A stretch of 64,000 nucleotides of DNA. Source: Loxodes magnus (Eukaryota; Ciliophora; Karyorelictea; Loxodida; Loxodidae). Shown piece by piece: positions 2,669 through 56,440 of the stretch. The stretch spans positions 310,001 through 374,000 of the forward strand of contig CAMPDV010000294.1 of the NCBI GenBank assembly GCA_946699065.1, read 5' to 3'. Under the pieces are notes generated by a model. It ran no database searches. It worked only from the letters and a program-made list of their open reading frames with translations, and had not been told where the DNA came from. The translations under genes were made by a program, and so were the position numbers. Position 1 is the stretch's first letter. Every line of letters begins with the position of its first letter.

Positions 2669-3740
2669 ATGGAGAAAAAAGAAAAGCAATTTACTAAAAG
2701 TATTTTTTTAAGAAAACTCTTAAGAGCGAGAAGCCACATTCTAGGGAAAGTATCTCTACTTCATTTTAAATATGAAATTCTGCCTAACTTATGCTACTAA
2801 AAGTTAATAAATAAGATCAGTTATGACCAAAGTAAAGGTATTTCTTTAATATTTTTTAGACTAAGTCTTTACTGGTCGTACTTCACCTATTTACTCGGTA
2901 GCCATATCAAGTGACCTGAATTGAATTATATCAAGTTCAGGATATCCTGAAAATTCGATAAAGATCTGGAATTTCCAGACAGGTACTCTCCTAAGAACTA
3001 TAACAGGACATACTTCTACTATTTGATCGGTAGTAATCTCCTCAGACTCTAGCTATATAGTATCAGGATCTGATGATAACACGATAAAGATCTGAAACTT
3101 ATAGACTGGTGCTCTCATAAGAACTATAACGGGACATACTTCATATGTTAAATCGGTAGTAATCTCCCCTGACTCTAGCTATATAATATCAGGGTCTGAT
3201 GACACTACTATGAAAATCTGAAACTTATAGACTGGTGCTCTCCAAAGAACTATAACGGGACATACTTCATATGTTAAATCGATAGTAATCTCCTATGACT
3301 CTAGATATATTATATCGGGATCTTGAGATAACACTATAAAGATCTGGGATTTCTAGACTGGTCAGCTTATGCGAAATCTTACTGGGCATTCTTACTCAGT
3401 TTTATCGGTGATAGTGTCTAAGGATAATAGGTATATAATATCTGGTTCTTATGACAGGACTATTAAGATATGGGACTTCTCATCTGGTTAGTGTATTCGT
3501 ACTCTTTAAGGTCATGCAGGTGGTGTATTAAGTATTCAGTTAAGTGTTGATTCGAGTGTTATATTTTCTGGTTCCGGTGACAGAACAATCAAGATCTGGA
3601 ACTTTGATAAGGGTGAGTTTATATAGACTTTATAAGGGCATACTTTAGATATAAATTCTATAGTGTTGAGTGTTGATAATAGATGGTTGGTATCGGGAGG
3701 ATTTGACAAGACGATAAGAAAGTGGAGAGTTTCGAGTTGA
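2669..3740 (+). CDS. WD40-repeat protein with in-frame TGA at Trp positions
   Basis: Seven or so WD40 repeats forming a predicted beta-propeller, probably a protein-protein interaction scaffold. The ATG at 2669 opens a 56-codon leader. Removing a 22-nt GTA...TAG intron (2838-2859) places it exactly in the WD40 frame, giving 350 codons to a TGA at 3738. TAA/TAG are read as Gln. Each repeat shows the expected GH ... SGS-D-TIKIW pattern, and the last ends DNRW, then TIRKWRVSS. Five in-frame TGA codons (2922, 3024, 3093, 3219, 3324) all fall where WD40 repeats carry Trp, for example TIKI-TGA-N beside TIKIWN with TGG. There are no frameshifts over about 880 nt. It is related to the C-terminal part of the pentapeptide-WD40 genes at 34.8-37.3 and 48.1-50.7 kb. 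Whether it is live depends on how TGA is decoded. Confidence 0.72.
2838..2859 (+). other. Predicted 22-nt intron in the WD40 gene
   Basis: The sequence begins GTATTT, is T-rich, and ends TTTTAG. Excising these 22 nt joins the open frame from the ATG at 2669 (phase 1, codon GAC split G|AC) to the WD40 frame that runs to 3738. The reading just after the junction contains a WD40-like TGRTSPIYSVAIS segment. Introns this short are known in several ciliates. It is inferred from frame joining only; cDNA would decide. Confidence 0.6.
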
Positions 3741-4220
3741 GTAACTTATTATTTGACTTAATTAAATTTTACAATTAAAGATATAAGATATTGGTAATGC
3801 ATTTAAATGAATATTTATTGGTAATTATGTTTTTTGTTATATGAAGTGTTTGCTTTATATATTTATTTAAAATTTGTTATATTCTTAAATATTATTGGTT
3901 TAAAAAAAAAAGATTGAGTAATATAGGTTATTGAAATTAGTGAGGTATGTTGACTTAAAGTGGTAATGTTTAAAAATATTTTTAATATAATTTTGTTAAA
4001 TGAAGACATGAAATAAGTTTAAGTTTTATTTTATTCTATAAAATTTTATAGATTTATTTTTAGATTTTGAAAAATTTCAAGTTAAGTATAAATTTTCATT
4101 TTTTTTTGTGAAGTAATTAAAATATTATTTATAAGGTTAAATTTACTTTATAATCTTGATTATTAATTAAAAAATTTAATTTAGTATTTTATTTCAAATT
4201 AAATTTTGTTTTTTATTATT
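3741..4220. other. AT-rich, nothing recognised
   Basis: Downstream flank of the WD40 gene. No coding frame or structured motif is supported. Confidence 0.4.
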
Positions 4221-4315
4221 GATATTTAATATAAATTATTATTATAATTAATTATTATTAATAATAATTAATTATTATTAATAATTAATTATTATTAGTA
4301 TTTATTATTATTATA
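4221..4315. repeat. ATT/TAA microsatellite with palindromic register
   Basis: Alternating ATTATT and AATAAT blocks joined by TTAATTAA-like centres, so the tract can fold back on itself. It lies immediately before a dispersed ~200-bp repeat. Confidence 0.6.
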
Positions 4316-4335
4316 AAATTTTAATATTTAAGTTT

Positions 4336-6640: not shown

Positions 6641-7439
6641 AGATGAGCAAGAATTTGAGGAAATATAAAATAAATAGGTTGTAAGATACAATAAATCGTC
6701 AAAAATATTTAGAATCTTTCCTGCAAACTTATCTAGAATTCTTTTAGATAGATTAAGATAATCTTTAAGTTTAAAATGAATTTATCAAAAATAATATCTA
6801 ATACAATGCTGATTAAACATTAGGATTATTTATTCCAGACTCAAGTTATAACGAAATTTCCTCGAGATCTTATTAAGAAATATGTAGGCCTAAAAGGGCT
6901 AACTCAGTATATAAAGAAGCACATATTATATCTGGAAGAATAAACAAATAAGTAACTAATCTTCATGAAAAAGTGAAACGACATTCTGAATGACTTCAAG
7001 TCTAATTTGCGAAAGTTTGAAAAAATAAAGCAAAAAAGAAATTTTACTTCTAAATGAAGATGCTAAAGAAATATTTTCACATACCAAGAAAATTAAAAAC
7101 CCTAAAAAAATAAATTAAATGAACTTTAATTAAGAAATCAAAAATAAATCCATTGAGTCATGGAAGAATTTATTTTTAACAAAAATTTTAATCATACTAA
7201 ATAATATAATTCTCAGTAATTAAAAAATAGATAAAATATAAGATAGTATTTAGGAAATTAAATATTACCAACTCTCATATTTATAAGGATTTTATCATTT
7301 TACCATACAAGAAATTATAAAAGAAATTACGAATGGAAAAGTAGCTTTTCAGCTTGAATAAAAGGTGAATTTCTGAAATATGGTGGATAATATTTTTTAA
7401 TAATTCTTCACTCTTCTTTGAATAATATGTTAAGATTTG

Positions 7440-8170
7440 GAAGAATCCCTTAGGAATTAAATACATTATCAGTAATTCCAATATTTAAAAAAGGAAATAA
7501 AGATGACTGGAAAAACTGACTACCTATTTCTCTTATTAATATTATTATAAAACTATATTATAAAGCTTTAACTAAAAGCTTTAACTAAAAGACTATACAA
7601 TCTGCTTCTTTAGATAAATTTGATTCACCCTTCATAAATGGGATTTATAAAAATTAGATAAAAAACTTAATAAAATTGAATAATATTACAAATAATTGAT
7701 AACTATCGGAAAAGTGCTAAAAGTAAGACTAATTGATAGCAACACTGATAGATGTTGAAAAAATGTTTGACTCAATAGAAAGAAGACTTTTATTAGATCA
7801 ATTAAAGAGAGTTAAACTACCACTTGGAATAATAATAACCTTAGAATCGTTTTACAAAAACCTAAATTCTTCATTTAAAATAGATGTAAAGAACACCAGA
7901 ACATTATAATATAACAATGGAGTTATGTAAGGAAGTGAGCATGGACTAGTTTTAGCATTGTTGTATTATGACGTAGTAATTAGATATTTGGAAAGTAAAA
8001 GTACCTTATTGGAATTCAAATGCCAGGGTTGGAGTACTAGCTTTACATGCAGACGATGAGCAGATGATCTGATTCTTCTTTCCAAAACTTCAAAGTAGAT
8101 GCAGGATTTAATAAATGAAACAAGTAAGCATTTTTACATAAACTCACTTAAGGATCAATGTTATCAAATC
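7440..8170 (+). pseudogene. Reverse transcriptase domain of LINE-A
   Basis: RNA-dependent DNA polymerase core of a non-LTR element. Readable motifs, in more than one frame, are: GRIPQELNTLSVIPIFKKGN-DDWKN-TGA-LPISL (the NWxPISL block of LINE RTs; the TGA at 7517 sits on the conserved Trp), TLIDVEKMFDSIERRLLLDQL (catalytic block A), NGVMQGSEHGLVLALLYYD (block B), and ALHADD near 8,041-8,055 (catalytic ADD). A small GATGAGCA/GATGATC duplication just after ADD shifts the frame. The copy is therefore a fossil, but family assignment is safe. Confidence 0.78.
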
Positions 8171-10715: not shown

Positions 10716-12110
10716 TCAGTTATGACTTTTAATACTTCTATAACTCTATTTTTCTAAATCAATCCTCATTATTGAAACTTTTCTCTATTCTACAGCAAAA
10801 ACATATCCATAGTTATTTCTTATTTTCATCTCCGTTAAAGCTAAAACATCTTTAAAAATTTAATTTTACTATCATTATTCTTTATTTCTTTTATATATTC
10901 TTCTTGAAAATTCTTTACTAGAATAATTTTTCATACCTCCACATATGACAAAAGGTACTAAAGAAACTATAGGAGAACCAACAGCTTCAAGAAGGCTCAA
11001 ATTTTACTTACTCCATTTATCATTCTATATGTTATATTTTCATATATCTTCCAAAGCTTATCTTTTCTATTTTGCACCTCCAAAAGAATAAATATTTTAT
11101 TCATCTTTATCTACTACTAAAGTTTAATAAGTTATTTAAAATGGAAATTAAGAACATTTTTATCATTTACTTTAGTTTCATATCTATAACTTTTCTACTG
11201 ATTATAGCCATTGATAATTACTTGTAATTCCTCCAATCACATAAAGATATTTTTAAGCAGCTGCTATTCCAAAGTCTCCTCTTTCCTCATTTAGATCACT
11301 AAGTTTTATTCTATTACTTTCATAATCAAATTATCAAGTTTCTTTTATTCATTTCTTTTAATTTTCGTTATATCCTCCAATTAAATATAACTTATTTTAA
11401 TATTATATACTTTTATTTTCAATAGGAATTATAATTTAAACTTAGACTTATCGTAATTACTCTGTTTAAATATTAAATAAACTTAATTTTTAAATTCTTC
11501 AATCAAAAAAGTGAATATAGTTAGATTATATAAAGTGCTAGCTTAGTTTATCTTAATTAGCCTAAATCTTATTTGGTTATTTAGTATTGTGTTATAGTTT
11601 TTATCTTATTAGATTGTAAGTTAATTTAGAGTTTAGTATTGTAGGTGGTTATGAGTTATATTAGAGTATAGTTGGTTTTAGTGATTAGTAGAATTAGATA
11701 ATATTTGAGTGTTATTTTTGGTAGATAAATGTTGGTTAATGATTGATGATGATATTAGTTAGTGGTATTATGAGAGTATTACTAATGTTTGATTATTTGG
11801 TTGTAATGGTTTTAGATTTTTCCATAATTTACCTCCTTATCTCTTTTAATTTCTATCTAGCATCTTAAATCTTTTATATGTATTATTAGTTTTAAAATAT
11901 CACTCTTATTAAATCACTTTCTTAAGGTAAATCATCAAATCTAAAATGGAATCCTTTTTAACAAATAGGACATTACATTATGCCTTATAATCAGTACTGA
12001 GTATTCAAACACAAACCACAGTAAATATGTCCACAAGGTAAGACAGTTGGAAGAGCATTAGTTAAGTTGTAATCTTCTAAGCAGATTAAGCATTTTGGTA
12101 ACGCTTACAT
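10716..12110 (-). CDS. RING-finger / Kelch-repeat protein, copy 1
   Basis: 465 codons from ATG (complement 12108-12110) to TGA at 10716. Residues 7-50 form a C3HC4 RING: CLIC, then C26-G-H28, C31-x2-C34, and CPIC at 47-50. A Gln/Asn-rich linker (about 70-210) follows. Kelch repeats then fill the C-terminal half, with LYVIGG, IYSFGG and CGG turns and K-Y-N-...-NDKW ends. RING-Kelch architecture suggests an E3 ubiquitin ligase whose propeller binds substrates. In-frame TGA lies at codons 40, 204, 259, 311, 316, 357 and 413. Codons 259, 316 and 357 are Kelch Trp positions, 40 is the usual hydrophobic/Trp site after the RING, and 413 is TGG in the other three copies. Codon 311 is Ala or Gly elsewhere. 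All four copies have the same length, which argues the frame is maintained. Confidence 0.72.
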
Positions 12111-12210
12111 TTTTATTATTATTTAGACTACAAAAGCTATAAAGCTAATTTATAACAGTTACCATCAAAAATACAGTCAATAGTATCTAAAACTACATTA
12201 TTACTTTATT

Positions 12211-24423: not shown

Positions 24424-25818
24424 TCAGTTATGACTTCTAATACTTCTATAACTCAATTTTTCTAAATCAATCCTCATTATTGAAACTCTTCCCTATTCTT
24501 CAGCAAAAACATATCCATAGTTATTTCTTATTTTCATCTCCGTTAAAGCTACAACATCTTTAAAAATTTAACTTTATTGCCATTATTCTTTGCTTCTTTT
24601 ATATATTCTTCTTGAATATTCTTTAGTAGAATAATTTTTTAAACCTCCAAATATGATAAAAGGCTCTAAAGAAACTATAGGATAAGCAACAGCTTCAGGA
24701 AGACTCAAACTTTACTTACTCCATCTATCATTCTATATGTTATATTTTCATATATCTTTTAAAGATTATACTTTCTAATTTGTACCTCCAAAAGAGTAAA
24801 TATTTTATTCATCTTTATCTACTACTAAAGTTTAACTTGCTATTTAAAATGGAAATTAAGAGCAGTTTTATCATTTACTTTAGTTTGCTATCTTTAACTT
24901 TTCTACTGATTATAATATTTGATTATTATTAGTAATTCCTCCAACCACATAAAGATACTTTTAAGCAGTTGCTATTCCAAAACCACTTCTTTCCTCATTT
25001 AGATCACTAATTTTTATATTATTACCTTTATAATCGAATTATCAAGTTTCTTTTATTGTTTTATTTTAATTTAAGTTATATCCCCCAATTAAATATAACT
25101 TATTTTAATATTCTATACTTCTATTGTAAATAGGAATTGTAATTAAAACTTAGACTTATCGTAATTACTCTGTTTAAATATTAAATAAACTTAATTTTTA
25201 AATCCATTAATCGAAATAGTGAATATAGTTAGATTATATAAAGTGGTAGCTTAGTTTATGTTAATTAGTCTAAATCTGATTTGGTTACTTAGTATTGTAT
25301 TATAGTTTTTATCTTATTAGATTGTAAGTTAATTTAGAGTTTAGTATTGTAGGTGGTTATGAGTTATATTAGAGTATAGTTGGTTTTAGTGATTAGTAGA
25401 ATTAGATAATATTTGAGTGTTATTTTTGGTAGATAAATGTTGGTTAATGATTGATGATGATATTAGTTAGTGGTATTATGAGAGTATTACTAATGTTTGA
25501 TTATTTGGTTGTAATGGTTTTAGATTTTTCCATAATTTACCTCCTTATCTCTTTTAATTTCTATCTAGCATCTTAAATCTTTTATATGTATTATTAGTTT
25601 TAAAATATCACTCTTATTAAATCACTTTCTTAAGGTAAATCATCAAATCTAAAATGGAATCCTTTTTAACAAATAGGACATTACATTATGCCTTATAATC
25701 AGTACTGAGTATTCAAACACAAACCACAGTAAATATGTCCACAAGGTAAGACAGTTGGAAGAGCATTAGTTAAGTTGTAATCTTCTAAGCAGATTAAGCA
25801 TTTTGGTAACGCTTAAAT
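24424..25818 (-). CDS. RING-finger / Kelch-repeat protein, copy 2
   Basis: Same 1,395-nt frame and domain order as copy 1: RING at residues 7-50, Gln/Asn-rich linker, Kelch propeller. Kelch motifs are clear here: LYLIGGY, LYVVGGI, IYSFGGT, then KDI-TGA-KYNIQNDRW and IIFGGL. In-frame TGA lies at codons 40, 259, 316 and 357. At codon 204 the other copies have TGA; here TAA-TGG is found across codons 204-205. The start codon position is ATT instead of ATG (25816-25818), the only obvious start loss among the four, so this copy may be silent or use another start. Downstream on the same strand lies the truncated coiled-coil gene. Confidence 0.68.
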
Positions 25819-27851: not shown

Positions 27852-27865
27852 ATTAATTATATAAT

Positions 27866-28699: not shown

Positions 28700-28719
28700 A
28701 TTAATTATATAATTAATTT

Positions 28720-33760: not shown

Positions 33761-34260
33761 ATCATCTACAATTTAAATCAATGATTTATTAAACAGTTCA
33801 AAATTAGTTAAGTAGTAGAACGTTTACAGAGATATCCAAACTAAGCAGAGTATAAAATATTTCGTTCATATATATAATTATAAAGCCTTTAAGTAATTAC
33901 CCTATTATAAATTTTTAACACACACTTTAGCAAAGCAATAGGTTGCAATTACTTCAAATATTTTTACTTGCTTATTTGAAAATAGGAATATATATTAACC
34001 TTTCAAACCTCTCGGTATACTAAACGTGATAAACATATTATTTATAAAACAAGTAATTATTTTATATAATTCTTACCCTCCATATTTAATTTAAGACCAT
34101 CCTGCTTTGTTGTTTGCTAGTTAAGATATTATTTTTTAATTTAAAATTCGTAAAAAAAGATTCTCTAAAGATGACTCAATTGGTAGTTGTTGATAAAAGA
34201 GTAGTTTTTATATATTAAATTAATCTTATTATTGTATTTCTTGTTGACTAAGATTTGAAG

Positions 34261-34776: not shown

Positions 34777-37310
34777 TCAAAGTAAATTTTACACACTCCA
34801 CTTTCTCATTATTTCATCAGCTATTAATAAGAGTCATTTGTTGTCCTTACTTATTATTACTGAATATACTTCACCTTAATGTTTTATTAAGGTTATTAGA
34901 TTATCGCCTGGTTAAAAATTCCATAATTAGATAGTTGAGTCACGGCAACAAAATATAAAATTATTATCATTTGTTACTGCTAAACTTATAACGCTATTAA
35001 AATATCCTTTTAAAGTTCGAATATATTGTCTATCAAAAGTCCCATATCTTTATTGATTTGTCAATTCTCTGACATTATTAATTTATTATCATGACTTAAA
35101 ATTATTGCTCTAATCTGGTCTTTATGTTTTTGAAAAAGCGAATACATTGTCCAGTTTAGAAATTTCATTTCTTAATAGTCTTAACAAAACTTCCCGATAC
35201 TATTGATTTATAATCTCATGTTAAAACCACCGATCTTACTCAATTCATATGTCCCTACAAAGTACGCTTCAGTTACAGATAAGATGAAACTATTATGTCT
35301 CTGCAAAGTAGCAAATGATTATGGTGATTCCAGTTATACGTTAGTTAAATTTACTTTATTAAAATTACAATTTATTAGACATGCATTTCTTAAGTTAACA
35401 CCATACATGTTGGTATTTTATAATTTACAATCTTACAGCAATTAATCACTTAAATAAGCCCCTTTGATTCTTATTGCTTCTAAACTTTTTATATAAACAC
35501 ATATTTTAAATTCTTCATAATAGTTATAGCATTAGCTGAGGCTTATTCTACATAATTAAAAGTTTTAGATAATTCAATTAATTTTTTATTTTATATAACA
35601 AGTTTTAACTTTAATTCTGCTTTAATTGGTTTCAAATTTCTTTATTATAGCATAATTAGATTTATTCAAACTATTTTATTTCAACTTTGGACCGGATAAA
35701 ACTTAATTTGACAATTTTACTGCAAATATACCAACAATCTCATTTAATATCATATTAATACTTTTAAATTCAATACTCGCCTAATCAATTTTCTACTTCA
35801 TATGTCTACGAAACTTTATTCTTCAGTTTATATTAATTTCCTTTAAACTATTTGGAGCCAATTACTGAGAGATTTAATTTACATTAAGCCTTCATTTTAA
35901 AATTAGCTATAAGTCTAAATCATTTACTTTTATTACTTAAACCATATTTTTAATTCAATCTACAAACATTTCTTGAGTTGCCATTATGTATATTTTTTCA
36001 AGCATTAATTTACATAACTGTTCTTTATTTTACTTTTTTCCTCTTATATTATCAGTTCCTATATTTATTAGTTTAAAACAATCAAATTTTCTTGAATTTA
36101 TTGTTTGATTCTTCCTATTTATTTTAACTATTTTAGGATTACTTGCTTGTCTTTTTCAAAACCAAACTACTCTAATGCTTATGATTATATTTACGTTCTA
36201 TGTATACTATCTTTTCTGATTTTTATTTATTATTTATTATTGAAAGTAGTTGTATTTATTAGTTGTGGAAGTGAATTAGTTACTTGTTGGAACTTATTTT
36301 GTTCGATGGGTTTTGAAAATGTAATCTTTTTTTCATGGTGTTAAACTTTGGCTTTTCCATACATATAAGATATCTTAAATCACTTTATCTCAACATTTAA
36401 TCAGTTAAATGATCTTTCATTATTATAAATTGCTGACTATCTCATGTGTAATTTAAATAATTATTAAAGCAATTTTTATATTTTAGGGTTCAAATTTTTG
36501 CTTGTTACTCGTCTTTATTATTTCTTTAGGTTTTCTATTTTTATCTATGTATCTTTTATTTCAGTGTACTATTTTTTGTTACATATTTTACCACTTTTTA
36601 ACGTTCAAGCATAATTGATTATTAACTTTATTTCTTTTTATCTTCTTCATTACTTAGTACTGTATCTTATTTTTTTAAAGTTTATACCTCATTATATTAC
36701 CATTTTATTTAAATTTACATGTAAATTTTTTCTTCCATTCGAGTAGGAATATTTTCTGGATAAGTGGTTTCTAATATTTCTAGGTATATATTTGTTCTAT
36801 TATCAAGTCAGTTGTTTCTATTACTGTATGCAAAACTGTCTTTTATATTTCCGAAGGTTTTTAGCTTTTTTTCTTTTGTAATTAAACTTTTGTAATAGTG
36901 GATTAGGTAGCTAATATTGTTGTTAATATTAGTTAATATTTCTCTTCTTGATAGAAATATCATAAGATTAATATTATAATTTTTTATGCTAGTAATTTAT
37001 TAAGTTATTCTTAATCAGATAAAAAATAGAAAAAATTGAGATGATACTATTCTTACTTAATCTATATGCCATCCAAAATCTCTATATGTATCTGAAGATT
37101 TCCATTACTGCGACACATTTTTTATTTTTGTTATACTTGAGTTTTAATTTTTTAAATCTTCTCTATAAAAATTGAGATAGATTATTCTTATTTTTTAAAT
37201 GGATTTTTTTATTTTATTTTCTTTAAAAAGTTGCTTATTTTAGAAAATTTCATTTTCTGCTAATTTTTTAGTTCATCATATTTTCCTTGCTTTATTTCAT
37301 CATTAGACGT
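34777..37310 (-). pseudogene. Coiled-coil / pentapeptide / WD40 protein, unit 2 copy
   Basis: Minus-strand gene of about 845 codons. The N-terminal coiled coil begins where unit 1 has ATG (here ACG, 37308-37310) and includes NPSNKISSNK. A middle region contains EQASANAITIMKN and SLEAIRIKGAYLSD. Pentapeptide repeats follow (GVNLRNACLINCNFNKVNLT, about 35,430-35,350). WD40 repeats run from about 35,300: QGHMN-TGA-VRSVV, IVSGSFVKTIKK-TGA-NFQTGQ, STIQLWNF, and finally SKDNK-TGA-LL...MRKW. TGA repeatedly occupies WD40 Trp sites. Several one- and two-base frameshifts (near 35,480, 35,100 and 35,050) make it a pseudogene. Pentapeptide-WD40 proteins are scaffold-like. It shares C-terminal architecture with the gene at 2,669. 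Confidence 0.65.
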
Positions 37311-37577
37311 TCTTTCTAAAAGTTTTATTATGATGTTGTTTAAATCTTACTGATCTATCATATTAATATCGAAAATTTATTATGATTGAGTTTTTATCTA
37401 GAGTATAATAATTATACTGGCTTGATTTCATTATTGGCTATGGGACATTTTTAATTATTCAAAGTTGCTAGTTTAAATGATGAAAGGAAATAATGTATTT
37501 TAGACTTGAGATGTTGACTTGATGAAAGTAGTGATTACTTAATTAGTATTTAGATATAGATATAGCTTAATGATAAT

Positions 37578-38405
37578 AATAATAATAATATACTAAATTA
37601 AAGTGTTCGTATCTCCAGGGATTTTAAACCCCTTCAATACATACCTCCAGAGTTCGTTCCTTGAGGTTTAAAATAAAAGTTTGGGACTCCCAGTTTTTTT
37701 GGAGTTCTGGCACTCCCTTGAAAAAGCCTCCTTCTAAATATTCTTCCATCCTTGTCTACATAAATTCTTGAAAGTTCTCTCCAAATCTCTTCACTGTTTC
37801 TTCTCTGTTTATCCAAATATATCTTGCATCTCTTGTATGTGTGGAATCTTGATTTGCACAGGTAGCACAGCTTGACAATTCTTCTGGGAGGAGTTATCTC
37901 TAAGGGTTTTGTGTATTCTAGTTCCATTTTATTTTCAGCTAAGATTTAAGGTTAAATTCTTTTTTCTCCCAAAAGTTTCACTTCGATTTCCTGTTTCATT
38001 AATCTTTCTTCATTGTTTTAACTTTTCTATAGTAATTTTTAGTTTTCTTTCTTTAATATTTAAACTTCTTCTTATAGGTTACGGATAGATTTCATAAGTT
38101 ATTCTATTATTAGCTATTCATCATTTTTCTATTTCTACATTATTTTTTAATTACCACTTTTCATGTAGTTGCTTGATCGTGGCTATGGGAGTAAAAAGTC
38201 TCGCTTGATTTAGTCAGCTTCTGTTGATTTAATTTCTTATTCAATTTAAGATTATTTTTCTAAATTTGGGGGTTAAAGAGCCTAAGAAAATTATTATGTT
38301 ATTAAAGAAGACGTGGTAGAGAAGAATTAGAAGTCTCTGATTTTTTTTCCTTTTTCTATGGAGCTGGAAAAAAACCCTTCTTGAGACCTTCTGCCATTTT
38401 TTTAT
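37578..38405 (-). mobile_element. ORF1-only retroposon, copy Y
   Basis: An 828-bp insertion in the RING-Kelch downstream spacer of unit 2, between exact 15-bp duplications TAGCTTAATGATAAT (37563-37577 and 38406-38420). The equivalent positions near 10,370, 24,068 and 50,930 are unoccupied, so the insertion is specific to this unit. The leader before ATG is 8 nt, and the distal end carries ACACTTTAATTTAGTAT plus an ATT repeat. It is nearly identical to copy X and so recently mobile. Confidence 0.9.
37634..38397 (-). pseudogene. Zinc-knuckle ORF1 protein, copy C-Y (one frameshift)
   Basis: Starts MAEGLKKGFFPAPQKK and stays in frame through KKSETSNSS, where copy X is broken. It then loses one C in TCTCTACC near 38,313 (copy X has TCTCCTACC). 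The remainder is in frame through the coiled coil and knuckle CYLCKSRFHTYKRC to TGA 37634. The differences from copy X include a 6-nt deletion. Neither copy is intact, yet they have separate lesions, so the parent was intact recently. Confidence 0.75.
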
Positions 38406-38759: not shown

Positions 38760-40154
38760 TCAGTTATGACTTCTAATACTTCTATAACTCAATTTTTCTA
38801 AATCAATCCTCATTATTGAAACTCTTCTCTATTCTATAGCAAAAACATATCCATAGTTATTTCTTATTTTCATCTCCGTTAAAGCTTCAATATTTTAAAA
38901 AATTTAACTTTATTGCCATTATTCTTTGCTTCTTTTATATATTCTTCTTGAATATTCTTTCGTAGAATGATTTTTCATACCTCCAAATATGACAAAAGGC
39001 TCTAAGCAAACTATAGGAAAAGCAACAGTTTCAGGAAGATTCAAATTTTACTTACTCCATCTATCATTCTATATGTTATACTTTCATATATCTTTTAAAA
39101 TCTATTTTTTCTAATTTATCCCTCCAAAAGAATAAATATTTTATTCATCTTTATCTACTACTAAAGTTTAAAAAGCTATTTAAAATGGAAATTAAGAACA
39201 GTTTTATCATTTACTTTAGTTTGCTATCTTTAACTTTTCTACTGATTATAATATTTGATTATTATTAGTTAATCCTCCAACCGCATAAAGATATTTTTAC
39301 GCTGCTGCTATTCCAAAGAAACCTCTTCCCTCATTTAGATCACTAAGCTTTATTCTATTACCTTCATAATCAAATTATCAAGTTTCTTTTATTGCTTTCT
39401 TTTAATTTCTGTTATATCCTCCAATTAAATATAACTTATTCTAATATTCTATACTTTTACTAAGCTCTGGAATTATAATTTAAACTTAGACTTATTTTAA
39501 TTACTCTGTTTAAATATTAAATAAACTTAATCTTTAAATTTTTCAATCAAAAAAGTGAATATAGTTAGATTATATAAAGTGGTAGCTTAGTTTATGTTAA
39601 TTAGTCTAAATCTTATTTGGTTACTTAGTATTGTATTATAGTTTTTATCTTATTAGATTGTAAGTTAATTTAGACTTTAGTATTGTAGGTGGTTATTCGT
39701 TATATTAGAGTATAGTTGGTTTTAGTGATTAGTAGAATTAGATAATATTTGAGTGTTATTTTTGGTAGATAAATGTTGGTTAATGATTGATGATGATATT
39801 AGTTAGTGGTATTATGAGAGTATTACTAATGTTTGATTATTTGGTTGTAATGGTTTTAGATTTTTCCATAATTTACCTCCTTATCTCTTTTAATTTCTAT
39901 CTAGCATCTTAAATCTTTTATATGTATTATTAGTTTTAAAATATCACTCTTATTAAATCACTTTCTTAAGGTAAATCATCAAATCTAAAATGGAATCCTT
40001 TTTAACAAATAGGACATTACATTATGCCTTATAATCAGTACTGAGTATTCAAACACAAACCACAGTAAATATGTCCACAAGGTAAGACAGTTGGAAGAGC
40101 ATTAGTTAAGTTGTAATCTTCTAAGCAGATTAAGCATTTTGGTAACGCTTACAT
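38760..40154 (-). CDS. RING-finger / Kelch-repeat protein, copy 3
   Basis: 1,395 nt, ATG at complement 40152-40154, TGA at 38760. The RING half is almost identical to copies 1, 2 and 4. The Kelch half differs at scattered sites but has no net length change. In-frame TGA at codons 40, 204, 259, 316 and 357; codon 413 is TGG. The retroposon at 37,578 lies beyond its stop, within the spacer to the next gene, and does not interrupt it. Probable substrate-binding ubiquitin ligase, by architecture only. Confidence 0.72.
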
Positions 40155-40385: not shown

Positions 40386-41159
40386 TCACTAATTAGTTTA
40401 TGAGTTTTAAGATGTAAATGAATCGTTCAGGTCTTTTTCAGAGCTTGTTTCTTCTATTGCATATCGTGTTGTACAGATTTAACCTTTCTTGATCTTAGGA
40501 ATTTTTCTTCAATCTCAATTAGGTTCCAATATCTTCCTCGTCCTTCTTTTTTGAGCATTTACTATATCCAATAGTAATTTATCTCCACTGTATAATTTTT
40601 TCTTGTAAAGTTTTCCTTCTGGAGAACAGTATAATTTTGTCATATTATTCCATATCTTTCAATTATTAGATTCTTGCTTCTTCTGAAAATACCAGCATCT
40701 TCTAAAGATGTGTCCAACCTTTTAGCAATAAAAACATCTTGATTTACAATATTTCGAGTTATGTCCTATTTTTAGCATTTTTAGCATTTTTAGCATTTTA
40801 AAAAATTGACAATTTTTTTCCGATCCGAAAAAGAAATTAAATTTTGTTCTTCTATTACCATAGGATCATTATTAAGATTAGAATTGTATGGTTTATTAAT
40901 TTCTACTATTTTTTGCTCCGTTTTTTGCAGTTTTTAATTACCTTGCAACATCAAGGGTTTAGTGCTTATTTCCGTTTTTAAGCATTAATTTTCGTTTTAT
41001 AATTATTGCACAGTAAAAGTTAGAGAATCTAATCGTTAAATAAAGTCTAGAAGTGATTGTTGGATTTTTTTGTTTTCCGCTCTAGAGAGTATATTCGATT
41101 AGAGAGTTTGATTACTGGATTTGGTGTTAGTTTTTGGTTGATTATTTGTTAGGAGGCAT
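40386..41159 (-). pseudogene. Zinc-knuckle ORF1, copy D (unit 2)
   Basis: Collinear with 26,050-26,843 and about 20 bp shorter, the difference lying mainly in the 9-bp AAATGCTAA tract. One T is also lost there, so the first knuckle reads KMLKIGH instead of KCLKIGH. The second knuckle CFYCQKVGHIFRRC is intact in sequence. Same C-terminal region with TGA in Trp-like contexts. Confidence 0.6.
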
Positions 41160-44964: not shown

Positions 44965-47630
44965 AAATTATTATAGAGCGCGTAGCACCTCATTGGTGTG
45001 CAGCTCTTTCAATATTAATATTTAATATTAAGAAAAATGTTCTCATGTTTCTTGTTAAAATTCTAGAGGTCCGATGAGTCATGTCAGCTTCTCCAAATGG
45101 GGAATCTTCTTATTATAAATTATTCTTAAATCTTGAGTCAACTGCTTCAGTCTTCTTGAATAAGGTCCAGATAAGAATTAGTTATTAAGTCGGTAATTAG
45201 AAGGCCCGTTAGTCAAACTTTCATACTGCTAGAGAGAACCCTCGGGGTAAGTTAAGTATGTCTCAACGGAGCTTTTCCACCCTTCTCCGTGGTGGCATCT
45301 AGTGCAAGATTACTCGAAATGCAGTATACATTGCACCAGATTACCTACTAGTTTGGCTGACGCGGCTGACATCCATTTTTTATATATATAATAATAATAA
45401 TAAACCATAAGAGTTTCAATATTTTAAATATTGAGACATAAATGTATAATTATCGCTAAATAACCTGCAAATTATGTTAAATTTAAAACTTTTTGCGTTT
45501 TCAATCATGGCTCTGTTTCACTCTCATCTTGATAAGGATTCATTTAATTCATTAAATCTACTTATTATATTCTTTTAATAAATCTACTTCTTCGCTCTAT
45601 TCTTTAAAAATATTTAATCTTCTTCTTAATAATTATAGATGGAATATTTTTATTTTCATGTTTATTTAATCATCTTATGTTTTGTAAATTATTGACTAAT
45701 ATAATTTTATTCATATAAAATTAGTCTTCTTTAATCTTTTCCAGTAATTATTTTGTGTTTGTTAAAATTCTTAAAAATGTCTTAATAAAGATTACATTGG
45801 AAATGGTGTTCAAATGTATCAAGGTCCTATCTGCATAAGCAAAGTTAGTTTAATTATGTTTCGATATATCGTTGATTCAGTTCTTATTAAAAATTATAAG
45901 TTTAAGTTCTTAGTTTATAGATTGAATAGTTTCTTGGATTAGATGTCTATTGTATTTGGTATATGTTATTAAAGGGAAAACATTATAATTACTTTCCATT
46001 TAATCAATAAATCTTTTTGCTGTTCACATTACTACAATCCTTTAAAGGCATTCTTAGAAGAATTTTTAGATTTAAATATTGAGATGCTTATTAAACTCTT
46101 TGAAATAATAAGTTCTTTAAATATCTAAATCATATTTTTCTATGCTTTATCTACATATTTCTTGTAGGTAAGGTTAAATTTATTCCACTTTTTAAGTAAA
46201 AAGGCTATATCTGAGTTAGTATTTTCCTAGCTGAATCGAGTTAATTTTCAGTAAAGATGCATAAATTTTTTATATCGAAGAATGGATAAATGAAAGTCAA
46301 TTTAAATCAATAAAACAAGATTCAATAAAGGAAGATTAAGAATATTTGAAAGCTAATCTTGATATAAGTCTTTGTGATCTAGTAATTTTTCTAGGCATTC
46401 CTTTAATTCCTGAAATTACTACTTAAGGAGTTTATTGCTTTCATATTCTACTTTGGGCAAAATGAAAGTTCTACAAAGGTTTTTATAACTAATTGGAGAT
46501 AAATGCCCTATTTGGAAAGTACAGCAGTCGTTTTCAAAATTGATCTCCTGTATACAGAAACCTTTTCTTCACAATGCTTTTTATAATTTTACTTGTTACC
46601 CAATTTTTAACCTAGATAAGAGATTAAATGTTTCTGTGTGATTGGAATTCCATTAATGTTTAGTTAATTTCAGTTTCTTTCTCTTTTTTCTCAGAAATTT
46701 AACTGTTTCACATTTCTTTGCATTTATATTTTAAATCTTACTCAAGTAAAAATTTAATAGTTTTTGGGCATTTTTTAGGAATCTGCAAATTAAATTAAAT
46801 CATCAGCAAAATCACGCACAACGAAAGATCTGGAACAAATATTAAATCCTAGTTTCTTTTAATTATTTTCTAAATATCTTAATGTCATAGTATATAATTG
46901 CAAGTACAGGACCATGATTACTTCCTTATAGAACACCATTATTAATCTTTACTGTTCTAGTAAGATATCCATCAATAATAAACTTAATATCAATATTGTT
47001 ATAAAATGATTCTAGAGCAAGATCTAAGTTTAGTCTTCTTAAATTATCAAAAAGTAATTTCCTATGTATATTATCAAACATCTTTTCTACATCAATTAAA
47101 GTATAAATCCATTATTTTTTCTTGATCATCTACAATTTAAATCAATGATTTATTAAACAGTTCAAAATTAGTTAAGTAGTAGAACGTTTACAGAGATATC
47201 CAAACTAAGCAGAGTATAAAATATTTCGTTCATATATATAATTATAAAGCCTTTAAGTAATTACCCTATTATAAATTTTTAACACACACTTTAGCAAAGC
47301 AATAGGTTGCAATTACTTCAAATATTTTTACTTCCTTATTTGAAAATAGGAATATATATTAACCTTTCAAACCATTTGGTATACTAAACGTGATAAACAT
47401 ATTATTTATAAAACAAGTAATTATTTTATATAATTCTTACCCTCCATATTTAATTTAAGACCATCCTGCTTTGTTGTTTGCTAGTTAAGATATTATTTTT
47501 TAATTTAAAATTCGTAAAAAAAGATTCTCTAAAGATGACTCAATTGGTAGTTGTTGATAAAAGAGTAGTTTTTATATATTAAATTAATCTTATTATTGTA
47601 TTTCTTGTTGACTAAGATTTGAAGGGTTAT
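44965..47630 (-). mobile_element. LINE-B copy 2 (minus strand), unit 2
   Basis: Collinear with 31,595-34,260: terminal hairpin 44975-45007, structured 3' UTR to about 45,372, then RT remnants up to about 47,560 with the same motifs and frame changes. In the long 3' UTR stem the left arm is GTTAGTCAAACT (45208-45219) against AGTTTGGCTGAC (45350-45361): C-G has become U-G, so pairing is retained. It was duplicated with the unit and is not an independent insertion. Confidence 0.75.
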
Positions 47631-48140: not shown

Positions 48141-50674
48141 TCAAAGTAAATTTTACACACTCCACTTTCTCATTATTTCATCAGCTATTAATAAGAGTCA
48201 TTTGTTGTCCTTACTTATTATTACTGAATATACTTCACCTTAATGTTTTATTAAGGTTATTAGATTATCGCCTGGTTAAAAATTCCATAATTAGATAGTT
48301 GAGTCACGGCAACAAAATATAAAATTATTATCATTTGTTACTGCTAAACTTATAACGCTATTAAAATATCCTTTTAAAGTTCGAATATATTGTCTATCAA
48401 AAGTCCCATATCTTTATTGATTTGTCAATTCTCTGACATTATTAATTTATTATCATGACTTAAAATTATTGCTCTAATCTGGTCTTTATGTTTTTGAAAA
48501 AGCGAATACATTGTCCAGTTTAGAAATTTCATTTCTTAATAGTCTTAACAAAACTTCCCGATACTATTGATTTATAATCTCATGTTAAAACCACCGATCT
48601 TACTCAATTCATATGTCCCTACAAAGTACGCTTCAGTTACAGATAAGATGAAACTATTATGTCTCTGCAAAGTAGCAAATGATTATGGTGATTCCAGTTA
48701 TACGTTAGTTAAATTTACTTTATTAAAATTACAATTTATTAGACATGCATTTCTTAAGTTAACACCATACATGTTGGTATTTTATAATTTACAATCTTAC
48801 AGCAATTAATCACTTAAATAAGCCCCTTTGATTCTTATTGCTTCTAAACTTTTTATATAAACACATATTTTAAATTCTTCATAATAGTTATAGCATTAGC
48901 TGAGGCTTATTCTACATAATTAAAAGTTTTAGATAATTCAATTAATTTTTTATTTTATATAACAAGTTTTAACTTTAATTCTGCTTTAATTGGTTTCAAA
49001 TTTCTTTATTATAGCATAATTAGATTTATTCAAACTATTTTATTTCAACTTTGGACCGGATAAAACTTAATTTGACAATTTTACTGCAAATATACCAACA
49101 ATCTCATTTAATATCATATTAATACTTTTAAATTCAATACTCGCCTAATCAATTTTCTACTTCATATGTCTACGAAACTTTATTCTTCAGTTTATATTAA
49201 TTTCCTTTAAACTATTTGGAGCCAATTACTGAGAGATTTAATTTACATTAAGCCTTCATTTTAAAATTAGCTATAAGTCTAAATCATTTACTTTTATTAC
49301 TTAAACCATATTTTTAATTCAATCTACAAACATTTCTTGAGTTGCCATTATGTATATTTTTTCAAGCATTAATTTACATAACTGTTCTTTATTTTACTTT
49401 TTTCCTCTTATATTATCAGTTCCTATATTTATTAGTTTAAAACAATCAAATTTTCTTGAATTTATTGTTTGATTCTTCCTATTTATTTTAACTACTTTAG
49501 GATTACTTGCTTGTCTTTTTCAAAACCAAACTACTCTAATGCTTATGATTATATTTACGTTCTATGTATACTATCTTTTCTGATTTTTATTTATTATTTA
49601 TTATTGAAAGTAGTTGTATTTATTAGTTGTGGAAGTGAATTTGTTACTTGTTGGAACTTATTTTGTTCGATGGGTTTTGAAAATGTAATATTTTTTTCAT
49701 GGTGTTAAATTTTGGCTTTTCCATAGATATAAGATATCTTAAATCACTTTATCTCAACATTTAATCAGTTAAATGATTTTTCATTATTATAAATTGCTGA
49801 CTATCTCATGTGTAATTTAAATAATTATTAAAGCAATTTTTATATTTTAGGGTTCAAATTTTTGCTTGTTACTCGTCTTTATTATTTCTTTAGGTTTTCT
49901 ATTTTTATTTATGTATCTTTTATTTCAGTGTACTATTTTTTGTTACATATTTTACCACTTTTTAATGTTCAAGTATAATTGATTATTAACTTTATTTCTT
50001 TTTATCTTCTTCATTACTTAGTACTGTATCTTATTTTTTTAAAGTTTACACCTCATTATATTACCATTTTATTTAAATTTATATGTAAATTTTTTCTTCC
50101 ATTCGAGTAGGAATATTTTCTGGATAAGTGGTTTCTAATATTTCTAGATATATATTTGTTTATTATCAAGTCAGTTGTTTCTATTACTGTATGTAAAAAT
50201 GTTTTTTTATATTTCCGAAGGTTTTTAGCTTTTTTTCTTTTGTAACTAAACTTTTGTAATAGTGGATTAGGTAGCTAATATTGTTGTTAATATTAGTTAA
50301 TATTTCTCTTCTTGATAGAAATATCATAAGATTAATATTATCATTTTTTATGCTAGTAATTTATTAAGTTATTCTTAATCAGATAAAAAATAGAAAAAAT
50401 TGAGATGATACTATTCTTACTTAATCTATATGCTATCCAAAATCTCTATATGTATCTGAAGATTTCCATTACTGCGACACATTTTTTATTTTTGTTATAC
50501 TTGAGTTTTAATTTTTTAAATCGTCTCTATAAAAATTGAGATAGATTATTCTTATTTTTTAAATGGAGTTTTTTATTTTATTTTCTTTAAAAAGATGCTT
50601 ATTTTAGAAAATTTCATTTTCTGCTAATTTTTTAGTTCATCATATTTTCCTTGCTTTATTTCATCATTAAACGT
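48141..50674 (-). pseudogene. Coiled-coil / pentapeptide / WD40 protein, unit 3 copy
   Basis: Same length (2,534 nt) as the unit 2 copy. The C-terminal ~1.5 kb is virtually identical to it, including all frameshifts, whereas the N-terminal part differs at several percent. The start position is again ACG (50672-50674). Pentapeptide and WD40 repeats are as described for 34,777-37,310. Shared lesions plus patchy identity mean the inactive form was copied or converted between units. Confidence 0.63.
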
Positions 50675-51275: not shown

Positions 51276-52670
51276 TCAGTTATGACTTTTAATACTTCTA
51301 TAACTCAATTTTTCTAAATCAATCCTCATTATTGAAACTCTTGGCTCTTCTATAGCAAAAACATATCCATAGTTATTTCTTATTTTCATCTCCGTTAAAG
51401 CTGAAACATCTTTAAAAATTTAACTTTATTGCCATTATTCTTTGCTTCTTTTATATATTCTTCTTGAAAATTCATTCGTAAAATAATTTTTTAAACCTCC
51501 AAATATGACAAGAGGCTCTAAAGAAATTATAGGAAAAGCAACAGCTTCAGGAAGACTCAAACTTTACTTACCCCATCTATCATTCTATATATTATATTTT
51601 CATATATCTTTTAAAGTTTATCCTTTCTAATTTGCACCTCCAAAAGAATAAATATTTTATTCATCTTTATCTACTACTAAAGTTTAAAAAGCTATTTAAA
51701 ATGGAAATTAAGAGCAGTTTTATCATTTACTTTAGTTTCCTATCTTTAACTTTACTACTGATTATAATATTTGATTTTTACTAATTAATCCTCCAACCAC
51801 ATAAAGATAATTTTAAGCAGGTGATATTCCAAAGGTACCTCTTCCCTCATTTAGATCACAAAGTTTTATACTATTACCTTCATAATCAAATTATCAAGTT
51901 TCTTTTATTGCTTTCTTTTAATTTCTGTTATATCCTCCAATTAAATATAACTTATTTTTATATTCTATACTCCTATTGCCTAAAGGAATTATAAATTAAA
52001 CTTAGACTTATCGTAATTACTCTCTTTAAATATTAAATAAACTTAATTTTTAAATTTCTCAATTAAAATAGTGAATATAGTTAGATTATATAAAGTGGTA
52101 GCTTAGTTTATGTTAATTAGTCTAAATCTTATTTGGTTACTTAGTATTGTATTATAGTTTTTATCTTATTAGATTGTAAGTTAATTTAGAGTTTAGTATT
52201 GTAGGTGGTTATGAGTTATATTAGAGTATAGTTGGCTTTAGTGATTAGTAGAATTAGATAATATTTGAGTGTTATTTTTGGTAGATAAATGTTGGTTAAT
52301 GATTGATGATGATATTAGTTAGTGGTATTATGAGAGTATTACTAATGTTTGATTATTTGGTTGTAATGGTTTTAGATTTTTCCATAATTTACCTCCTTAT
52401 CTCTTTTAATTTCTATCTAGCATCTTAAATCTTTTATATGTATTATTAGTTTTAAAATATCACTCTTATTAAATCACTTTCTTAAGGTAAATCATCAAAT
52501 CTAAAATGGAATCCTTTTTAACAAATAGGACATTACATTATGCCTTATAATCAGTACTGAGTATTCAAACACAAACCACAGTAAATATGTCCACAAGGTA
52601 AGACAGTTGGAAGAGCATTAGTTAAGTTGTAATCTTCTAAGCAGATTAAGCATTTTGGTAACGCTTACAT
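51276..52670 (-). CDS. RING-finger / Kelch-repeat protein, copy 4
   Basis: 1,395 nt, ATG at complement 52668-52670, TGA at 51276. RING residues all present (C7, C10, C26, H28, C31, C34, C47, C50). TGA at codons 40, 204, 259, 316 and 357; codon 311, TGA in copy 1, is GGA here. A LINE-C insertion starts 100 bp upstream of the ATG at 52,771, at the same base as in copy 1, so its promoter region has been displaced by about 4.6 kb. Confidence 0.72.
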
Positions 52671-55619
52671 TTTTATTATTATTTAGACTACAAAAGCTAT
52701 AAAGGTAATTTATAACAGTTACCATCAAAAATACAGTCAATAGTATCTAAAACTACATTATTACTTTATTACATACTTTAAATAATCCAATATTAGGATA
52801 TTATATCAAGTACCAATCTCACAATTAGCATGCCGCCAATCTAGGATCGAGGCTGCTTAGTAAATTTAGCAAAGACATGAAAGAGCTTTACAACTTAATC
52901 AGATTATAGATATTATTTTTAAGAAAAGTGTGTTTGTCGCAAAATATTTAAACTACTAGGAGGAATGCACAAAAAGAGGCAGAAATCTTAAAACTAAGTA
53001 ACCTATCAAAAAAGTAGGTAATTTAGAACATCAAATCAAACAGCAGCTCTGTGCAAATTATTATAATGAGGAAAGAAAAGAACGAATAAATTCCATAAAA
53101 TGAGAACGAAAATATGCAGCTGAAAACCGCTTTAAGAGTAGGAGTTACCTATTTCAATCAATTTTTAGGAGAAAATTATTATAACCAAAGGCTTAGTTCA
53201 TCAGAAATGCAAGAAAATGAAATCGATCAAGCATGTATGAATTAAGGATATGGTAAAATATTGAGAGTATGAAAATCCTTCAGACAGGAATAATTATTAT
53301 TTGATTCAAAAATAAGGAAACAGTCAGACAATTTGGAAATAATTAAACTGGAAGAGTAGATACCAAAAGAACAAAGAAAAATAGAGGAATTCTACAAAAT
53401 TAATAACTATCTGATTGATTGAGCACTTAACATCTATTCAAGTTTGAACCAGGTAGAAATCCATCTTTAGCAGCACGATAAAATATTATATACAGAGATC
53501 GGAACCGTAAAAGGTACAACGTGAGCCAATGGGAAAATGAAAACTTATTTAGAATTGAAGGAGATCAAAGATGGAGAAAGTATACCAGATAAGTTAAAAG
53601 AAGGAGGTATAAGCACTTACTTGAGTCAGTCTGGAAATCCCATACATGTATCTTTGTATCGCCAACTATTAATTTGAAAATATATGAACTGTGACAAATA
53701 AGAGCATAACACAAATTAATACTTAGGAAAAAGGGCTATAAGGGAATCGATTAAAAATGTTGAGGAAGTAAAAATCATGTTGATTTATTCGGAAATCAGG
53801 AATAAAATGCCTTACTATAAAGAGAGACAGATAGCGAAGGAAAAGAAAGTGAAGGAAACTGAAGAGAGTAAACTTCAAATAGATTAACACGTTTTATTTC
53901 TAGCAAAAGAAGCAAGTTTAAACAATACTAAGGTTACTTTAAAAGCGATCGACTTTAATAGATACTTAACTACAAAATTAAATAAATAAAACTGAGACGA
54001 AGCAATCAATGTCACAAAAAACAAAAAGTAAAATAGGAAATATGGCAAAACAAATGAAGCAACTAGAAAGTAGTGATAGAAAGAAAGTATGCATAAACAC
54101 AACGCTGTCTCAGAAAAGACATAAAATATATAATGGTAAGGAAGATAATATTGAGTAAAAATATTGAAGACATAAGTACAGGAAAAATAATAAACATTAT
54201 AACGATTTTGTTTTCACGCTATTAAAGAAGTAGAAGCTAAAAATGCAGAGTAGGAGGATCAAGAAAAATAGGAAGTACAAGGAAATAATAATATAATAAA
54301 ATAGACAGAATTAAACATAGGCACAGCAAATGTCAGAGTATTAAAATCAAACAAGGAAGAATTAAGCAAGATTATGTGTGAAAAGAAGAAGAAATTATGG
54401 CGATTTGAGAAATGTTTGTGAAAAAACTGCTGAAATACCTTATATATACGGATTCAGAGCAATAATAAAATTGAGCACAAAACATTGCAAAGGAGTAGCA
54501 TTTTATATAAAAGATGGATTATCCGCAGAACCGAAGTATTTGATATAGAGGACCTCAATCAAGCAGAATTATTTTAGAGAGGAAGATTAATAGGTTTAAC
54601 ACTTGATGATCAGCTAGCATTGATAAACGTATATAGCACTACAACATCTTACTCTGATTAATTAATACCCTTTTTTGAAAGTTTATAATAATAAAAAATA
54701 GCAGCAAACGCAAATGATAATAAATTTCAATATTAGGAGATTTTAATGCTCATATTCCCCAATTTAAAATCGTATGAGTAGAACAATACAGGCTAATACT
54801 TATTTAACTGATGAAAGATTATCATTTGGAATGTAAAAATCCAAATCAAGATCCTTCCTACATCATAACATAAAGGAAAGGAAAATTTAAAATAGAATAA
54901 TTCTTAAGGGATATCATGCCTAACATTATCAGCACAAAATTCTATAAATAGAGACCAATAGAAGATTATTAGTCAGGTAAATAAAGATAAAAATTGCGGA
55001 AGAATATCGAAAAAAACTCATAATTTAAAAGGATAACTTTCAAAAATTAAAATAATAAAAGGTTCAAGAGAGATTGAAAGAATGATTCGAGAAAATAGAT
55101 CTTAGCGAATTCAAAAATTAAGTTAGTGAAGCATACTTTGAAAAATGATCAGAATATATCCAAGAAGCGATCAAAGCAATATGTGAATTTGTAACAAATT
55201 AAATGAGAAAATGCTAATATACAACAAAAATAATAAAACCAAGAAAACATTTCTAATAGCAGACGAAATAAGTAAAATGTCTAATTAGAAAAGGATGCTT
55301 ATAAATTGATAATTATATTAAAATGAGATAAGAATCAAGGAGAAAATTTAGACTGCATCAAAAAAAGATAGGAAAAATCAATTAAATATTTTCCTAGATG
55401 AAATTAATTAAGGAAACTTAAACAACACTTGAAAAGGAATATAAAAATGATTAAAGTAGAGAAAATTACACCATGGACATTAATTAACAAAAAGGATATT
55501 CCAAATTTAAAAAAAAGCTGAGAGAAGCTCTATAAAAGTGGCAAATACAGATTAAAAGACTCATACAGGAGTACATAAACAGAATAAGTTAAAAAAGAAA
55601 AATTTAGTGTGCTATATAG

Positions 55620-56440
55620 AAAAGCTCTCCTTTAAAAAAGCTGCAGGACCTGATGGAATATAAATAGGAACAATAAGAGCTGGAGAAGATAAGCTTGTTA
55701 ACCTAATCACAATATTAGCATAGAAAATAATACAATCCGGAGCTATGCCAAGTAAAATTAAAGGATCTTTTATTATATTATTTCATAAAAAAGATAGAGC
55801 GGAAGATCTTATGAATTATAGGCCGATTTGTCTTTTAATTCATATAGTAAAAATTTAGATCTCTGATTATTTGGATAAATAAACTCATATTTGAGCAGGT
55901 GTGACGATGAATTATAATATGGCTTAAAGCAAGGCGAATCATGCTTATAACAAATCTTCAATCTAAGAACTTTACAAGAATGACTTCAGCAAAATAATTA
56001 AGAAGAAGCAGTAATATTTATTGATATTAAAAAAGCATTTGATTCTATAATAAAAGAAGATATATGAAAGATACTAAATGAAATTGAAATACCCGAGTAA
56101 ATAAGCAAGCTTATTGCTGAATTGTACAGAGAAGAAACAAAGTTAAAAATAAATGATTTAATATCAGAACAGTTTTAAACGGGGGAAAGGAATTAAATAA
56201 GGTAGCACTTGTTCCCCAAAGTTATTCAATACTATAATAAATAAACTTCTCAACTAACTAAGATAAAACAAAGTAGGAATAACTATAAGTATGGAATTAG
56301 AATATTATACAAAGGAAAGATATATGGGAGCATTAGCATATGCAGATGACATTGTAATGATTATAAGTCCAGGCCAATTACAAGAGATGATTGAAATACT
56401 ACAACAGTGATCGTAATAATAAGATGAAAATTACAAATAA
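55620..56440 (+). pseudogene. Reverse transcriptase domain of LINE-C copy 2
   Basis: Clear non-LTR RT: KKAAGPDGIQIGTIRAG (start of block 1), SFIILFHKKDRAEDLMNYRP (fingers), FIDIKKAFDSI (block A), and YADDIVMI at about 56,337-56,360 (catalytic YADD). A frameshift sits between the fingers and the GFKQGESC block near 55,900. TGA at 55981 (LQE-TGA-LQQ) and 56065 (KEDI-TGA-KIL) are in frame and Trp fits both, the second very well. TAA/TAG serve as Gln throughout. Confidence 0.8.

Follow-up and report, generated by a model that had tools for sequence, protein, structure and literature searches.

Results

Genes with internal TGA codons

The window analysed here, a stretch of 64,000 nucleotides of DNA, carries a WD40 propeller gene and four tandem copies of a RING-Kelch gene, and the reading frames of both genes contain internal TGA codons. 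The original prediction was that UGA is read in this DNA as Trp, or as both Trp and stop, and this proved to be the best reading of both genes. The features that carry the argument are as follows (log-odds are given for columns of the hidden Markov model, HMM, described below).

2772..3740, plus strand: WD40 propeller gene with seven repeats (Pfam WD40, E = 1.5e-75, 7 stretches, TGA read as Trp)
2922..2924, plus strand: internal TGA, WD40 repeat 1, HMM column 17 (log-odds for Trp 1.2, below Tyr 1.9 and Thr 1.75)
3024..3026, plus strand: internal TGA, WD40 repeat 2, column 7 (Trp 1.76, Asn 1.8)
3093..3095, plus strand: internal TGA, WD40 repeat 2, strong Trp column with 0.72 Trp (Trp 5.98, next Arg -0.69)
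3219..3221, plus strand: internal TGA, WD40 repeat 3, strong Trp column (Trp 5.98, next Arg -0.69)
3324..3326, plus strand: internal TGA, WD40 repeat 4, column 23, GSxD (Trp best with 2.07, Asp 0.95)
3738..3740, plus strand: TGA that probably ends the WD40 gene, after the last repeat and at a drop in GC content, with an in-frame TAA 7 codons on
10716..12110, minus strand: RING-Kelch copy 1, TGA at codons 40, 204, 254, 259, 311, 316, 357, 413 and terminal 465
24424..25818, minus strand: RING-Kelch copy 2, TGA at codons 40, 259, 316, 357 and terminal 465; Pfam Kelch and RING with TGA read as Trp
38760..40154, minus strand: RING-Kelch copy 3, TGA at codons 40, 204, 259, 316, 357 and terminal 465
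51276..52670, minus strand: RING-Kelch copy 4, TGA at codons 40, 204, 259, 316, 357 and terminal 465

The five internal TGAs of the WD40 frame are present as originally predicted. Each RING-Kelch copy is 465 codons long, and all four have TGA at codons 40 (in the RING domain), 259, 316, 357 and 465; the three Kelch codons among these had been pointed out in advance, as had codon 413, where copy 1 indeed has TGA and the other three copies have TGG. Codon 204 is TGA in three copies and TAA in copy 2. Over the WD40 gene and the four RING-Kelch copies, TGA makes up 27 of the 42 Trp codons, or 1.2% of 2178 codons.

The starts of both genes are uncertain: in the WD40 gene, ATG occurs in frame at 2772 and 2823, and codon 1 of RING-Kelch copy 2 is Ile (Met in the other copies). 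Codon usage differs between the genes. The WD40 gene has 34.9% GC, six TAA codons (four of them within the first 31 codons, which adds to the uncertainty of its start) and five TAG codons; the RING-Kelch copies have about 24% GC, with 179 TAA and 25 TAG among the 1856 codons summed over four copies.

The amino acid at TGA in the WD40 gene

Circularity was avoided by masking TGA in the search for WD40 homologs, which, of 8000 proteins scored, gave 4919 at 1e-10; the HMM of the repeat was built from the 120 listed among them. Seven WD40 repeats are also detected by the TGA-masked HMM. Summed over the five internal TGAs, the log-odds are +17.0 bits for Trp, +1.3 for Tyr and +0.1 for Arg, a margin of 15.7 bits, and five aligned positions drawn at random from the gene reach the same Trp sum with P = 3e-5. 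Thus Trp is the best residue for UGA in this gene. In a control of the same method, the top-ranked residue was the known amino acid in 21 of the 24 codons having at least four sites; the misses were AGA, called Lys (by 1.5 bits), TTT, called Val (0.5 bits), and TAT, called Trp. Many eukaryotes use UGA as the codon for selenocysteine. Here, however, Cys scores -2.4 bits across the five sites, as against the Trp sum above, and the probability that these codons stand for selenocysteine is practically negligible.

As for the other two triplets, the five TAG codons at HMM columns gave 6.0 for Lys and 5.5 for Gln, and TAA codons 246 and 288 immediately precede GH in repeats 6 and 7.

The amino acid at TGA in the RING-Kelch copies

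With TGA read as Trp, Pfam RING and Kelch domains were detected in copies 1 and 2; the Pfam scans covered the window outside 36.7-52.7 kb, with 1-4 kb and 10.3-12.2 kb scanned in some frames only. In a substitution test, the 20 amino acids were placed in turn at the TGAs of copy 2 and scored by 15 Pfam models covering a TGA (PF17123 and PF23412, where coverage of a TGA was unclear, and PF09778, with one residue only, were left out). Trp was best in 10 of the 15 models, and zf-C3HC4_3 gave a tie with Gly; since the models overlap, the 15 tests are not independent. The Kelch_1 model scored Trp at 58.6 and its runner-up Glu at 57.7. The PF24681 score was unstable: Trp had 60.0, but 100.6 with a query one residue longer, and Tyr had 98.3.

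Comparison of the RING-Kelch protein with solved structures in the Protein Data Bank gave 174 sequences at E <= 1, of which 60 were listed and four alignments inspected; among the matches listed, the best were designed Kelch proteins. A protein search with TGA-masked copy 3 found none at 1e-5 among 4640 candidates. No near relatives of RING-Kelch were found in genome contigs, and none of either gene in viral contigs.

Conservation of the frames

TGA at Trp positions could also arise by pseudogene decay in a ciliate with the standard ciliate code (table 6), where TGA is a stop only and TGG-to-TGA transitions accumulate in dead genes. The original prediction carried this caveat, and for the WD40 and RING-Kelch genes it is disfavoured by three lines of evidence, taken in turn below: the frame of the RING-Kelch copies, selection in the WD40 gene and its conserved G bases.

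The RING-Kelch frame is kept through its TGAs. The alignment of the four copies has no indels from the start to the terminal TGA (across all the TAA and TAG codons counted above), although the 3' flank gains them. Indels occur at none of the 143 variable columns after codon 40, compared with 11 of 77 in the 3' flank (Fisher test, P = 1.6e-5); at none of 100 after codon 259 (P = 1.7e-4); and at none of 46 after codon 357 (P = 0.016). The gap rate between tandem units 2 and 3 predicts 16 indels in the frame, and none is observed (P = 1.0e-5). Behind TGA 465 the first indel, an in-phase one of 9 nucleotides, lies at 20 nucleotides, and the frame is not broken by an indel until 40 nucleotides. A conserved TGA is thus found close to the 3' border of the frame.

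The WD40 gene contains tandem 126-nucleotide repeats. In all 10 pairs of five consecutive 126-nucleotide segments (pairs that are not mutually independent), the ratio of nonsynonymous to synonymous differences per site (pN/pS) was 0.42-0.62 for the read-through frame, compared with 0.70-2.88 for the alternative frames. There is, accordingly, purifying selection between the WD40 repeats, and in the read-through frame only; repeats of a decaying gene would not be expected to differ in this way.

At columns where one residue exceeds 0.6, the WD40 gene keeps Gly at 6/6, His at 6/7, Ser at 7/7, Asp at 6/7 (with one Glu), Ile at 6/7 and Leu at 3/5, and Trp appears as TGG at five and as TGA at two of seven. 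By hand count, all 19 G bases at conserved Gly and Asp columns are kept, whereas five of the 11 Trp codons are TGA (Fisher test, P = 0.003). Had these five arisen from TGG by G-to-A decay, losses of G would be expected elsewhere; the intact set of 19 speaks otherwise.

Decayed elements as a control

Decayed long interspersed nuclear element (LINE) copies in the same window serve as a neutral control; they are listed here together with two pseudogene copies.

7337..7966, plus strand: decayed LINE reverse transcriptase (128.6 bits), TGA at 7355, 7517 and 7697, frameshift near the ADD motif by eye
55637..56242, plus strand: decayed LINE reverse transcriptase in two frames, TGA at 55864, 55892, 55981 and 56065, none Trp-favoured
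33526-34005, 46890-47363 and 62201-62598, minus strand: three fragments, two inside tandem units, apparently from a single family of LINE reverse transcriptases
34888..35438, minus strand: pentapeptide and WD40 pseudogene broken up over three frames; of its TGAs, 35240 and 35165 lie on Trp-favoured columns and 35216 on a Pro column
48252..48618, minus strand: WD40 part of the pentapeptide-WD40 pseudogene of the next unit, TGA pattern as in the 34888..35438 copy

The reverse transcriptase matches were found with an HMM built from 19 LINE homologs, distant relatives with 23-31% identity; those at 7.3-8.0 kb and 55.6-56.2 kb are spread over more than one frame. Their 14 TGAs, two of which stem from a weak 15-bit match, sum to 4.5 bits for Met, 3.8 for Tyr and -1.2 for Trp. 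Columns with Trp log-odds above 1 hold four of the 14 (two of these being one duplicated site), compared with five of five internal TGAs in the WD40 gene (Fisher test, P = 0.011, or 0.0065 if the duplicated site is taken as one). The LINE frames, which had originally been cited in support of Trp, were therefore rejected as such: TGA 7517 falls on a column with 4.3 for Tyr and 3.1 for Trp, and TGA 56065 on one favouring Leu (1.7) and Phe (1.5), with Trp at -0.9. The expectation that TGA lies mainly where Trp is expected thus held for the WD40 gene and failed for the LINE reverse transcriptases, and scoring of the residues aligned to TGA divides in the same manner, Trp being preferred in the WD40 gene and most Pfam models and not in the LINEs. 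Decay alone, then, does not heap TGA on Trp columns in this genome, so that the case for the intact genes becomes stronger while the LINEs drop out of it. The two pentapeptide-WD40 pseudogene copies are near-identical, and each has TGA on Trp-favoured columns at two of three sites. The last repeat of this pseudogene has DNK-TGA-L, and the intact WD40 gene has the similar DNRWL, with TGG.

Evidence against Trp and in favour of decay

A number of observations weigh against the Trp reading. In the WD40 gene, the bulk of the score comes from the two sites in strong Trp columns; the other three sum to 5.0 for Trp and 4.0 for Tyr and so are by themselves unable to separate the two, and in the control the Tyr codon TAT was miscalled Trp by 2.9 bits. 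Trp is not the favoured residue in four of the 15 Pfam models: besides the unstable PF24681, Tyr is ahead by 0.1 bit in NANM and has 20.8 against 19.5 in Prok-RING_4, and Asn has 26.6 against 24.7 in zf-C3HC4. The margins for Trp in the RING models are at most 1.4 bits. The four Protein Data Bank alignments place Glu opposite codons 259 and 357, as far as they cover these, and codon 316 lies one place past a Trp of the designed Kelch proteins; with Glu at two Kelch sites and as the runner-up in Kelch_1, the Kelch domain is less informative than WD40 on the residue. Copy 1 has TGA at codon 254, where the other copies have ACA, GCA and GCA (Thr/Ala), and at codon 311, where they have GCA, GCA and GGA (Ala/Gly), the latter correctly listed as a counterexample in the original prediction. 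With an extra new TGG at codon 301, this copy may be either decaying or carrying new Trp residues. A LINE ORF1-like (open reading frame 1) frame at about 15.0-15.93 kb on the minus strand has four TGG and no TGA. Finally, the pooled pN/pS of RING-Kelch is about 0.83 in frame, compared with 0.75 and 0.78 out of frame, indicating fast residue evolution and no purifying selection on residues; the ratio of nonsynonymous to synonymous substitution rates was therefore rejected as support for this gene.

The RING-Kelch pN/pS, the two Thr/Ala/Gly sites of copy 1 and the presence of decayed LINE and pentapeptide-WD40 copies in the window are what one would expect if TGA were a product of decay. Set against them are the RING-Kelch frame without indels, the purifying selection between the WD40 repeats, the conserved G bases and the LINE control, and we regard decay as an improbable explanation. 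For UGA as a Trp codon in this DNA, on the other hand, we have high confidence.

The LINE ORF1-like frame has a CCHC-type zinc knuckle by eye and no Pfam match; in a crude scan for coding potential, it is among the few bins to pass the strict threshold.

Gene ends

Both families seem to end at TGA. At the terminal TGA, GC content falls in the WD40 gene from the 34.9% of the gene to 16% in the next 100 nucleotides, and in RING-Kelch from 23.9-24.8% to 8.5-14.3%. Upstream of the terminal TGA, the WD40 gene has no TGA, TAA or TAG within 25 codons. Up to codon -50 of RING-Kelch, about 10% of the codons are TAA, yet none of the last 44-47 is, and the last internal TGA is at -52 in copy 1 and at -108 in copies 2-4; TAG, in contrast, occurs at -23 in three of the four copies and additionally at -10 in copy 1. 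Within the last 25 codons of the five sequences (a small sample with four near-copies), TAG is the only one of the three triplets to occur, twice in copy 1 and once each in copies 2 and 3; the WD40 gene and copy 4 have none. This is the pattern of depletion of UGA and UAA, and not of UAG, before the stop, the four RING-Kelch copies counting as one lineage.

These ends bear on a code of the Condylostoma type (table 28), in which UAA, UAG and UGA are all dual, UGA stands for Trp, and the stop would be the TAA behind TGA. The RING-Kelch codon directly behind the TGA, 466, is TAA in all four copies, another point that counts against termination at UGA, and the WD40 gene has the in-frame TAA 7 codons on. 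As TAA follows the terminal TGA in both families, a TAA stop is possible, and in this respect tables 27 and 28 are not told apart. However, TAG is still used in RING-Kelch at 10 and 23 codons from the end, whereas Condylostoma magnum is reported to lose UAA, UAG and UGA upstream of its stops (PMC4967479). On balance, table 28 is unlikely for this DNA.

Tandem units and other features of the window

The RING-Kelch copies, one per unit and all on the minus strand, belong to four tandem units (10.3-53 kb of the window) spaced by 13.7, 14.3 and 12.5 kb. Units 2 and 3 are 97-98% identical over the aligned parts, with 209 mismatches and 24 gap openings across 10,690 aligned bases. About 400 nucleotides at the start of the RING-Kelch gene (alignment columns 100-499) show no difference among the four copies, which suggests gene conversion. 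Two further features are the following.

28021-28703 and 37577-38259: inverted repeat of 683 nucleotides, arms 8.9 kb apart and 98% complementary
26432-26484 (unit 2) and 40768-40799 (unit 3): 9-nucleotide tandem array ATTTTTAGC, with unequal copy numbers between the units

A table-6 frame without TGA on the minus strand (26102-28558, 818 codons) was not taken as a gene, as it has no codon-position bias and no Pfam match. The GC content of the window is 23.8% by base counts, ranging from 20.8% to 29.0% across 4-kb bins. ARAGORN found no transfer RNA (tRNA) within the window, and no Rfam family reached its gathering score there. Simple codon-bias gene finding was of little use in the window, two runs retrieving the WD40 stretch only.

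Discussion

The nuclear code of this DNA is likely to be a ciliate-like one in which UAA and UAG stand for Gln, and UGA for Trp internally and for stop near the end of the messenger RNA (mRNA), as in NCBI table 27, the karyorelict type. As judged from the sequence, the evidence comes from two unrelated gene families only. Under such a code, and following mechanisms proposed in the literature, a near-cognate tRNA-Trp(CCA) whose anticodon stem is shortened (to 4 bp) would decode UGA, and the release factor would prevail only at a UGA close to the transcript end. Adenosine-to-inosine editing of UGA to UGG in the mRNA, in place of decoding by a Trp tRNA, would equally yield Trp at every TGA; yet 27 of the 42 Trp codons in the five gene copies would have to be edited, we know of no ciliate case, and we hold it to be highly improbable.

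The use of one triplet both for an amino acid and for stop is a standing puzzle of translation, to which the sequence points here without transcripts. The tandem RING-Kelch copies form a natural test of it, with a frame that stays intact across the internal TGAs and indels that appear soon past the last. The code type itself is already known, from a handful of ciliates, and the heavy share of UGA is the single feature that goes beyond the literature considered. That this DNA represents an undescribed ciliate lineage, in which UGA is the majority Trp codon and still a stop, is a doubtful proposition. If true, the capture of a dual codon would have gone much further here than in Parduczia sp. 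or C. magnum, judged by their reported UGA usage, and a stretch lacking UGA and UAA would mark the border between stop and sense. If the heavy use of UGA extends genome-wide, this would be a good organism for asking how termination is distinguished from Trp decoding. Gene prediction with table 1 or table 6 would fragment the WD40 and RING-Kelch genes.

Comparison with known systems

The standard ciliate code (table 6) would share UAR (UAA and UAG) as Gln; unlike that code, where UGA is a stop only, frames under constraint run here through internal TGAs. The dinoflagellate Amoebophrya sp. ex Karlodinium veneficum is alike in that all three stops are contextually translated, UGA probably as Trp (PMC12005148). 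The code of C. magnum (table 28) would be similar in that all three stops are also sense codons and UGA is Trp. In C. magnum, UAA, UAG and UGA are all depleted upstream of stops, and UAA and UAG also terminate genes (PMC4967479), whereas here TAG stands 10 and 23 codons upstream.

The closest likeness is to the karyorelict code (table 27; Loxodes magnus and Parduczia sp.), in which UAR is Gln, UGA is Trp internally, and UGA ends genes (PMC11441545, PMC4967479). In L. magnus, UGA and UAA are depleted in about 20 codons before the stop and UAG is not, and GC content is 33.5% in coding sequences and 18.6% in 3' untranslated regions (PMC11441545); UAG without UGA or UAA just before the gene end and a GC step at the terminal TGA are also seen here. 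A LINE-rich genome with signs of duplication is a further point of likeness (PMC11441545). A difference is that UGA makes up 1.2% of codons here, in Trp-rich domains and with four near-identical copies among the genes counted, compared with a reported 0.120% in Parduczia sp. (PMC4967479); the corresponding value for C. magnum is 0.042% (PMC4967479). Overall, the GC step, the LINE remains, the duplication and the pattern at the gene ends would, by resemblance only, place this DNA near a Loxodes-like karyorelict (PMC11441545).

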